From a bacterium (GTDB lineage Bacteria > JAHJDO01), in assembly GCA_030611945.1 (NCBI GenBank), contig JAUWOV010000061.1, forward strand, positions 1-10,315: a DNA stretch of 10,315 nt, written 5' to 3'. A program made the position numbers and the translations under genes. Shown one piece after another: positions 1 to 10,315 of this stretch. The notes under the pieces were generated by a model, which saw nothing but the letters and a program-made list of their open reading frames with translations, searched no databases and was not told the DNA's origin. Within the stretch, counting starts at the first letter, position 1; each line of letters begins with the position of its first letter.

Positions 1-1053
1 TGCATTGCGAGGCTGTGTGAGGATTTTTACAAAGTCGTTTTCGGTTAAACTTGAGAGTTCAACTCTTATCGGGAACCTTCCCTGCAGTTCAGGGATAAGG
101 TCTGACGGTTTACTCACATGAAAAGCGCCGGCCGCTATAAATAGAATATGATCTGTCTTTACCATTCCATATTTTGTGGCAACAGTCGTTCCTTCCACAA
201 TAGGCAGTATGTCTCTCTGCACTCCCTCTCTTGACACGTCAGGTCCCGACTGCGATTTAGCGCCTGCAACCTTATCAAGCTCATCAATAAATACTATGCC
301 GGAATTTTCCACTTTGGATATAGCGGTACGAATAATTTCATCCATGTTAAGTAATCTTTCTGCTTCTTCCTGAGTGAGGATACGTCTCGCTTCCTTAATG
401 GCTGCTTTTCTTTTTTTGCTTTGTTTCGGCATCATTTTGGAAAACATATCTTGGAAATTTATTCCCATTTCTTCTATGCCGGAACTTGAGAAGATTTCAA
501 CCATTGGCATTATGTGATTTTTTGTCTCAAGCTCAACCATTCTATTATCAAGTTTGCCGTCAGCAAGTCTCATTCTTAGCTTTTCTCGCGTTCTTTTAAT
601 TTGAGCTTCCTTTTCCTTATCATCAGTTTTGCTTTTTGCATGGGGCAGTAGCAGATCTAACAGCCTTTCCTCTGCAAGCTCAGCTGCTTTTATTTCAACA
701 CGGCAGGTTTCGCTGTCCTTTACCATTTTTACTGTAAGATCAGTCAAATCCCTTATCATGGATTCTACGTCTCTGCCAACATAGCCAACCTCTGTGTATT
801 TTGATGCCTCAACCTTGATAAATGGCACCTGAGCCAATCGCGCAAGGCGTCTGGCAATCTCTGTTTTTCCTATACCTGTTGGTCCGATCATAATAATATT
901 CTTTGGAGCAACTTCGTCACGCAGTTCCAATGGCAGTTTTTGTCTGCGCCATCTGTTTCTCAAAGCTATAGCAACAGACTTCTTAGCATTGTTTTGTCCG
1001 ATAATATATTTATCAAGCTCTTTTACAACTTGTTTTGGTGTTAGTGCATCCAT
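1..1053 (-). CDS. hslU: HslU, ATPase/unfoldase subunit of the HslUV protease (C-terminus cut by window edge)
   Basis: AAA+ unfoldase that unfolds cytoplasmic substrates and feeds them into the HslV peptidase. The first 351 codons are visible and stay open to the left edge; the family is about 440-470 residues, so roughly the last 90 or more are missing. Seen: Walker A GPTGIGKT at residues 57-64, the GYVG pore loop at 90-93, an inserted charged helical I-domain around 110-240, Walker [10 protein letters not shown] with D257 and E258, and GRFPIRVEL with the probable arginine finger R326. The start ATG at 1053 is preceded by GGGAGA (1062-1067), 8 nt upstream, which touches the hslV stop codon. 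Only 13 nt separate it from hslV, so the two genes are surely co-transcribed and possibly translationally coupled. No frame break is seen. Identification is firm. Confidence 0.96.
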
Positions 1054-4351: not shown

Positions 4352-5299
4352 TCATGCTCTTGGGTGAGCTTTTTTATACGTTCTTTTCAATTTTTCAGGT
4401 GTAAGGTGTGTGTATATTTGCGTTGTTGATAAACTTACATGCCCAAGCAATTCCTGCACAGATCTGAGATCAGCGCCGGCGTCCAAAAGATGTGTTGCGA
4501 AACTATGCCTGAAAGTATGAGGAGTGATTCCTAATGTTTTCGGAATTCCAATAATATGTTTACGCACAATTCTCTCAACGCTTCTTGAAGTGAGCCTTCC
4601 TCCCCATTTATCAAGAAACAATGCTTGTCTATCCTTAGATATGTCGAGCTTTTCATTATTAAATAATGTGTCTCTAACATCAGAATATCTATTTATTACA
4701 TCAAGGGCAGTATCCCCAATAGGAACAATGCGCTGTTTGTTTCCTTTGCCCTTAACCTTTATGGTTCCGCCGCCAAAATCTATGTCACGGATATTGAGAC
4801 CTGTAAGTTCTCCAACTCTTATGCCTGTTGAATAGAGTGTTTCAAATATAGCTCTGTCTCTTATTCCTAATACATCATTTTCGTCAGGTTTTTCTATTAA
4901 TTTAATCATATTCTCTACAGTAAGAAATTCCGGCAATTTTTTCGCGGTTTTGGGAGTGGAGACGACTAGTGTTGGATTTGTCTTTTGATATCCTTCTCTT
5001 ACAAGAAACTTAAAAAAAGACCTGATTGTGGCAAGTTTTCTTCCTATGGATTTATTTGAATAGGCTTTGTTTTGTAAATGCGCCAGAAATTTTCTTATAG
5101 TTCTGTGTGTAATGTTTCCCAATTCTTCTTTATCTGATTTTAAGAATTCTAAGAATTGCTTAATATCAGATGAGTAAGCTTTAATAGTGTATTCTGACAC
5201 ATTGCGCTCAATTTCCAAATATGTAATAAAGTTTTGGACATTTGTCCCGACATTATCGGGATGTTTCGGATTTCGGATTTCGGATTTCGGATTTCCCAT
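4352..5299 (-). CDS. xerC: Tyrosine recombinase XerC/XerD-like
   Basis: Site-specific tyrosine recombinase, expected to resolve chromosome dimers at dif with a XerD partner. Seen: N-terminal SAM-like core-binding domain (about 20-105) and catalytic domain (about 125-310) with the full catalytic set R161 (TGIRVGEL), K185 (KGKGNKQR), H261 and R264 (HTFRHSFATHLL), H287 (LLGHVSLSTTQ) and nucleophile Y296. The 315 residues are slightly longer than the usual 295-305. The excess is residues 1-19, encoded by a 7-bp tandem repeat and a short inverted repeat. The next possible in-frame start (TTG, residue 28) would clip the domain, so ATG 5299 is kept. It lies 1 nt after the upstream stop, with no good ribosome-binding site, suggesting translational coupling. 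XerC rather than XerD is favoured by the nearby hslVU, a known partnership; an integrase of a mobile element is unlikely. Confidence 0.85.
   Translation of the reverse strand: MGNPKSEIRNPKHPDNVGTNVQNFITYLEIERNVSEYTIKAYSSDIKQFLEFLKSDKEELGNITHRTIRKFLAHLQNKAYSNKSIGRKLATIRSFFKFLVREGYQKTNPTLVVSTPKTAKKLPEFLTVENMIKLIEKPDENDVLGIRDRAIFETLYSTGIRVGELTGLNIRDIDFGGGTIKVKGKGNKQRIVPIGDTALDVINRYSDVRDTLFNNEKLDISKDRQALFLDKWGGRLTSRSVERIVRKHIIGIPKTLGITPHTFRHSFATHLLDAGADLRSVQELLGHVSLSTTQIYTHLTPEKLKRTYKKAHPRA
5245..5261. repeat. Short inverted repeat within the xerC 5' end
   Basis: TCCCGA-CATTA-TCGGGA: perfect 6-bp arms around a 5-nt loop, inside the first codons of xerC (encoding about PDNVG). It lies beside the 7-bp tandem array, and together they make up the atypical N-terminal extension. 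It may be part of the same dispersed repeat element. Confidence 0.6.
5267..5294. repeat. Tandem repeat of 7 bp, four copies (cggattt)
   Basis: Four perfect head-to-tail copies of cggattt, with a preceding ttt as a partial fifth. Because the unit is 7 bp, three units make seven codons, so on the minus strand the array reads through in the cycle N-P-K-S-E-I-R without a stop. It encodes residues 2-11 of the predicted XerC. I recall similar NPKSEIR-type arrays in genomes of uncultured candidate phyla; that is memory, not a search. Confidence 0.85.
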
Positions 5300-9050: not shown

Positions 9051-9536
9051 TTACTCCTCGTACTCCTGCTCTTTATCATTTAAGACATCAAGCTGAATGC
9101 CAACCTGTTTGAACATTTCTCTGGTTAAACCGGCAGTATGATATTTTTTCTGGCATACAACCCGCTTGATACCGGCAGCAATTATTATGCGGGCGCATAC
9201 TGAACACGGCTCCATCTTGACATAAAGAGTAGCGCCTTCCAAAGCCACACCTATTCTGGCTGCATGCACAATAGCATTCTGCTCAGCATGTATGGTGCGG
9301 ACACAATGGTCATGTAATTTCCCTGAGCTATCTCCTTCTTCTGTTGACTTAATCATCAAATGCCCAACTTCATCGCAATGAGCCAGTCCCGGCGGAGAAC
9401 CAACATAACCGGTAGAGAGAATATGGTTATTCCTAACAATTACACAACCAGCCCGACCGCGTCCACAAGTAGCTCGGGAGGCAACTGTCTTCATTATTTT
9501 CATAAAATAACTGTCCCAATTTGACCGCTCACTCAT
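9051..9536 (-). CDS. dCMP deaminase (ComEB/dCMP deaminase family)
   Basis: Zinc hydrolase converting dCMP to dUMP, the substrate of thymidylate synthase. Seen: zinc and proton-shuttle motif HAEQNAI (H83, E85) and PCSVC (C111, C114), preceded by HCVR (77-80). The segment STGYVGSPPGLAHCDEVGH (41-59) and the downstream KYHTAGLTREMF are typical of dCMP rather than cytidine or tRNA-adenosine deaminases. The 161 residues are normal for the family. AAGGAG (9545-9550), 8 nt before the ATG, supports the start. It lies upstream of nrdR on the same strand with 71 nt between, so the two neighbouring units both serve deoxynucleotide supply. It has its own predicted promoter. Riboflavin-type deaminases are excluded by length and motifs. 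Confidence 0.93.
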   Translation of the reverse strand: MSERSNWDSYFMKIMKTVASRATCGRGRAGCVIVRNNHILSTGYVGSPPGLAHCDEVGHLMIKSTEEGDSSGKLHDHCVRTIHAEQNAIVHAARIGVALEGATLYVKMEPCSVCARIIIAAGIKRVVCQKKYHTAGLTREMFKQVGIQLDVLNDKEQEYEE

Positions 9537-9597: not shown

Positions 9598-9625
9598 CAG
9601 AAATTCAAAACATTTATATAGACTT

Positions 9626-10315
9626 TTAAAAGGCATTCTGAATTAGCTTAAAATCAACCATATTCTTTTTTGAATCAAACAGGATAGAGACCACATCAAA
9701 ACGAAAGCAGAGATTCCGATACTTGCTTGTTTTAATATATGCCTCTGCAATACGACGAATTCTATTCTGCTTAGTGTGAGTAACTGAACTTTCTGGCGGG
9801 CCAAATCTGTCTGAGGAACGAGTTTTAACCTCAATAAATATCAGTACATCCTTATGCCTTGCAATAATATCTATTTCTCCCCATAGTGACCTATAATTTC
9901 TTTCAATGATTTTATATCTCTTTGTCTTAAGAAATCTACATGTAAAGTCTTCTCCATATTCTCCTAAAGATATCTTTCCACTTTGCTTATTCTCCTTTTC
10001 CCGAACAGGAGAAAACGACCTTCTATGAATAGGGGATATGCCAAATTTTGCTATTACTTCAAGATGAAACTGTGTAGCATACCCCTTATGTTTTTCAAAG
10101 CCGTACTGAGGATATTGTTTTGCGTAATCTATCATTATTCTGTCTCTTGTAACTTTTGCAATAATAGACGCTGCAGCTATTGACGCGCTTTTTGAATCAC
10201 CTTTAACAATTGCTGTCTGCGGTTTTTTTAAGCTTGATACTCGTAATCCGTCAACCAGTATACATTCTGGGGAGATATTTAAGTTATCAATTGCTCTATT
10301 CATAGCGCGGTGTGT
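9626..10315 (-). CDS. rnhB: RNase HII fused to a YraN/UPF0102 nuclease-like domain (N-terminus beyond right edge)
   Basis: One uninterrupted frame joins two families; residue numbers count from Met at 10303, and the frame stays open to 10315 (T-H-R-A before that Met), so the true start is outside. Residues 1-100 are the C-terminal part of RNase HII, which cuts RNA in RNA-DNA hybrids: LVDGL with D18, [22 protein letters not shown] with D54 (two of the four expected acidic catalytic residues), then [11 protein letters not shown] and HRRSFSPV. Residues about 112-210 are YraN/UPF0102: [21 protein letters not shown] (E143, D145) and IFIEVKTR (E158, K160), a PD-(D/E)XK-like nuclease fold of unknown role. 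A short charged linker (101-111) joins them. The two genes are commonly neighbours, and I see no stop or slippery run at the junction. It sits 89 nt upstream of the dCMP deaminase gene. Confidence 0.9.

Follow-up and report, generated by a model that had tools for sequence, protein, structure and literature searches.

An RNase HII-YraN fusion encoded throughout a bacterial genus and recurrent in other bacterial lineages

Ribonuclease HII (RnhB; PF01351) nicks DNA 5' of ribonucleotides, and the recognition of single ribonucleotides involves its GRG motif, the lysine of its NDSK motif and the tyrosine of its KGY motif. In most other bacteria rnhB and yraN are adjacent or overlapping, yet separate; the pairs found in Clostridia and many other bacteria have the same genes, order and strand as the locus described here, usually overlap or lie a few bases apart, and give two polypeptides where the fusion gives one. 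YraN (UPF0102; PF02021) is widespread and conserved, and its job is poorly understood: it has been placed by sequence among the PD-(D/E)XK nucleases (PMC1189080, PMC1913061), the ID...EVK catalytic motif of this superfamily has been described (PMC1189080), and a 2024 preprint, as cited in PMC12455585, presents it as a helicase-associated nuclease that promotes recombination in natural transformation. Among 68 loci with separate genes (picked by their similarity to the fusion, hence not a random sample), 67 have both domains on one strand with 7-217 nt between them; at 11 of these 67 loci the two share a frame and are parted by a stop. An earlier sequence-only reading of this DNA had likewise called the two genes frequent neighbours.

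The window (the whole 10,315-nt stretch of DNA analysed, contig C102) ends within a gene in which these two families are joined (Table 1). The single uninterrupted frame that the sequence-only reading had described is present, encodes 229 residues and is open at the contig end; an ATG at 10303 is not the gene start. The encoded protein matches Pfam RNase_HII over residues 2-103 (E 3.9e-22) and UPF0102/YraN over residues 121-211 (E 5.9e-30, 103.9 bits, profile positions 1-80 of 80). YraN is thus complete in the window, with GEID and EVK in place (E158 and K160, as named previously, belong to the EVK motif), while the RNase HII part covers only profile positions 85-198 of 199 and 2 of the 4 catalytic carboxylates. 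The aspartates D18 and D54, singled out in the sequence-only reading, correspond to carboxylates three and four of RNase HII, which we take to be D107 and D129 in Thermotoga maritima numbering (the D107 match being made via the D107N chain of 3o3f); the first two (DEAGRG) lie beyond the contig end. A linker does exist between the domains, as claimed, and its length is about 12 residues instead of the proposed 11.

Table 1. Features of the fusion gene and its downstream neighbour in the window
Feature	Position	Strand	Description and basis
5'-truncated RNase HII-YraN fusion gene	9626..10315	-	229 residues + stop; contig ends inside the gene; open frame and Pfam
RNase HII domain, C-terminal half	10007..10315	-	catalytic Asp codons 10250-10252 (LVDG) and 10142-10144 (TRDR)
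Putative relic of the yraN translation start	9980..9997	-	AAGGAG-AATAAGCAA-AGT; last codon ATG in G001 and G003
Interdomain linker, ~12 residues	9968..10003	-	alignment; low-confidence region (pLDDT 63-73) of the sibling model
Complete YraN/UPF0102 domain	9629..9967	-	GEIDII + EVK catalytic motif; Pfam, alignment, fold match
dCMP/cytidine deaminase-like gene (comEB type), downstream neighbour	9051..9536	-	adjoining in G002 too

Since only this part of the RNase HII profile is present, the intactness of its active site is not to be judged from the window, and the earlier claim that both active sites are intact stands for a full-length copy on contig C37 of the same bin and for the sibling copies, not for the window copy by itself. 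The C37 gene (1816-2772, 319 aa, conserved start MFFYENK; a longer mechanical ORF starts inside rplS) encodes a protein that scores over the cut-offs of both Pfam families (RNase_HII at 17-193, profile 1-198 of 199, 149 bits; UPF0102 at 211-301, profile 1-80 of 80, 100.8 bits) and of both NCBIfam equivalogs ('ribonuclease HII' and 'YraN family protein'). In alignment with T. maritima RNase HII, all four carboxylates (D20, E21, D112 and D148; 3o3g/3o3f) are present, and GRG 23-25, K51 (NDSK) and Y169 (KGY) align with those of 3o3g. The YraN site comprises GEIDII at 236 and EVK at 252, with E237, D239, E252 and K254 present, and in alignment with separate YraN proteins E237, D239, E252, V253 and K254 are at least 90% invariant. 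The full-length copies support a genuine fusion in which both catalytic sites are conserved. Compared with bacterial RNase HII (3o3f/3o3g; Escherichia coli 7uwe), the full-length fusion has in common the complete fold, the four carboxylates, GRG, Lys and Tyr (with ~50% identity to these structures), and differs in adding a C-terminal YraN domain past the usual end (HRxSFxPV); compared with YraN/UPF0102 (3fov), it has the complete domain with the GEIDII and EVK site, joined to RNase HII in place of a free protein.

The AlphaFold2 model of L026, a sibling protein of 324 aa (mean pLDDT 91.3, pTM 0.67), is weakest near residues 190-210, in the linker region, and depicts what are predicted to be two well-folded domains with a tether of uncertain geometry. 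Residues 3-202 of the model match RNase HII 3o3f (Z 28.2, rmsd 2.7, 195 aligned) and residues 210-324 match UPF0102 3fov (Z 15.6, rmsd 1.6, 97 aligned), the next matches of the second domain being archaeal Hjc proteins (top 1gef, Z 9.8). The PD-(D/E)XK fold is common to the fusion and archaeal Hjc (Z 8-10); the Hjc profile (PF01870) scores the window protein at 14.3 bits, under its cut-off of 21.1, and for this reason we do not regard the YraN part as an Hjc member.

Comparison with kin (five genomes of the genus and, otherwise, domain-level relatives) revealed that the fusion is encoded in one frame in 5 of 5 genus genomes. Over seven alleles (seven contigs, five genomes) dN/dS came to 0.110 in the RNase HII part, 0.134 across the junction (17 codons) and 0.088 in the YraN part, the junction substitutions being mostly synonymous; all three parts are thus under purifying selection. 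The architecture is not confined to the genus, as its presence in other families and in the phylum of genome G058 shows. In a sample of 385 genomes, uninterrupted fusions were found in at least 8 of the 380 outside the genus, in at least six families (a lower bound); these eight, among the matches listed (G202, G058, G332, G166 and G019, G297 and G010, and G298), are single ORFs with both Pfam domains. In the G058 phylum, 94 of 120 genomes matched both domains without interruption, and the four stop-flagged genomes that were retrieved (L211-L214) all proved to have single fused ORFs, so that ~98 of 120 genomes, in ~23 families, carry the fusion, which in this phylum is the rule; some of its genomes have RNase HII alone at the matched site (L215, L216, L217 and L219). 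The search for other proteins with both domains that the sequence-only reading had called for recovered them in several lineages, and they were placed on trees. Two of the outside fusions (L165 and L166, in G297 and G010) have a longer frame (396 and 421 aa between stops), in which a charged N-terminal stretch precedes RNase HII. Within the genus, a second, lower-scoring match to the RNase_HII family occurs in G002 (L115; G002:C47:5884-6495, 107 bits, 316-aa frame), which is possibly an RNase HIII; no such second match was seen in the other four genus genomes. RNase HII and YraN are both known families, and their fusion is genuine and recurrent; in the literature searched, largely open access, no paper mentions YraN together with RNase HII and we found no description of the fusion, while public domain databases may list this architecture.

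The junction itself offers an indication of how the two genes were joined. In six of the seven alleles it reads AAG GAG AAT AAG CAA xxx, where the codon xxx takes three forms: ATG in both G001 alleles and in G003, AGG in C37, G002 and G004, and AGT in the window; the variant of G003 reads AAA GAG AAC with CAA-equivalent spacing. An intact AAGGAG-9 nt-ATG is found in one sibling genome (G001), and this arrangement looks like a former yraN ribosome-binding site and start codon that is now decaying. We infer that the stop of rnhB was lost upstream of a yraN start that can still be recognised, and in G001 a free YraN could be made from the internal start alongside the fusion. Free trees required six changes of the fusion state in one case and four in another; in the four-change tree a starred (98%) branch separates the genus from the fused phylum, and the AU test rejects neither a single clade uniting all fused proteins (p 0.656 and 0.655 in two runs) nor a clade of the genus with the fused phylum (p 0.67).

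Taken together, the sequence comparisons make it probable that this genus-wide (and elsewhere phylum-wide) fusion places two complete nucleases in one polypeptide, held by a short tether. Its N-terminal part would be a working RNase HII nicking 5' of ribonucleotides in DNA, and its C-terminal part a working PD-(D/E)XK YraN acting on branched or displaced-strand DNA, with the ComM helicase as its probable partner, a link drawn from the preprint cited in PMC12455585; the fusion would have arisen via boundary loss between two adjacent, co-transcribed genes. The proposed partner is available, since ComM is encoded in all five genus genomes; ComEC is likewise found in all five, and DprA scored over the cut-off in four. 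Against a working YraN counts a recombinant UPF0102 protein that had no detectable nuclease activity (PMC10140301). Substitution of YraN for a missing RuvC was rejected, as RuvC is present in four of the five genomes, i.e. in every one that is more than 90% complete. The gain from such an arrangement is most likely a fixed 1:1 supply and a shared delivery to DNA, and not new chemistry.

Beyond this proposal, the fusion may be largely neutral: an operon boundary was lost, both halves kept their old jobs without benefit, and free YraN would still be made in some species. Such a course is favoured by the gene pairs that overlap or abut elsewhere, 11 of the 67 sharing a frame, and by the relic AAGGAG-9-ATG start of G001 and the ATG of G003, whereas the long persistence of the fusion across a whole phylum speaks against it, as does the fact that G000 (the bin of C37), G002 and G004 lack the internal ATG while YraN stays under purifying selection. 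We hold a neutral fusion to be possible, if somewhat unlikely.

The sequence-only reading had connected YraN, by way of the fusion, with ribonucleotide excision or the removal of Okazaki primers. This link is conjectural: adjacent and often overlapping operon partners can fuse by simple boundary loss, and a fusion is no proof of joint action. Under functional coupling both nucleases would act in sequence on one substrate (e.g. a strand-exchange or R-loop intermediate that RNase HII nicks at ribonucleotides or RNA-DNA junctions, leaving a flap or branch for YraN to trim). That the fusion is kept in ~23 families of another phylum and in further lineages suggests more than a passing accident, and the selection on the junction is comparable to that on the domains; however, most bacteria keep two genes, the linkers of different lineages are unlike in both length and sequence (which gives no hint of an exact arrangement of the two domains), no firm interface emerges from the L026 model with its pTM, and selection on both domains is no sign of joint action. 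We consider coupling unlikely, and about equally so in its most ambitious form, in which RNase HII-YraN would be a dedicated two-step enzyme, fixed in a phylum and present in other lineages too, that couples incision at ribonucleotides or RNA primers to branched-DNA processing in recombination. The fusion itself shows a pairing of rnhB and yraN strong enough to turn covalent and to persist phylum-wide; a long-lived fusion to a well-understood enzyme provides a guilt-by-association lead on YraN, whose function becomes testable in a single protein with two catalytic sites that can be inactivated separately.

An artefact of assembly or sequencing, with two genes joined through a frameshift or an overlooked stop, might be suspected from the position of the window copy at a contig end and from a bin with overlapping contigs and an apparent second strain, but its probability is negligible, since the same in-frame junction recurs in seven contigs of five genomes with codon-structured divergence, purifying selection extends across it, and the fusion also turns up in genomes of another phylum that consist of one contig (G399 and G442, for example). 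The congeners carry this junction and not two separate genes with the same sequence at the join, the finding that, if made in all close relatives, would have counted against the fusion according to the sequence-only reading.

On C37 the gene order is rpsP-trmD-rplS-fusion, followed by an rRNA operon; in sibling genomes rpe and ffh extend the operon on its upstream side (names of these neighbours read from translations), and the fusion is followed by lptD or a dCMP deaminase gene where C37 has the rRNA operon. The latter is complete (16S, two tRNAs, 23S and 5S, in the order 16S-tRNA-tRNA-23S-5S; L005:2914-8022, in G000) and begins ~140 bp past the fusion. The window contig overlaps C37 at 91.6% identity (window 9624-10315), C51 at 95.4% (305 bp at the end of C51; window 9216-9520) and C63 at 94% (129 bp at both contig ends; window 1-129). 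As these overlaps (92-95% identity) each coincide with a contig end, a true second gene copy in one genome is disfavoured, and the two fusion copies in the bin look like the signature of a second strain; G001 likewise has two fusion copies on two contigs.

Elsewhere in the window, a dispersed repeat of ~30-36 bp (5262-5297; MGNPKSEIRNPKHPDN...) that occurs on many contigs of the genus genomes sits at the start of the longest ORF of a xerC-like gene, and for this reason the gene probably starts further downstream than that ORF implies.
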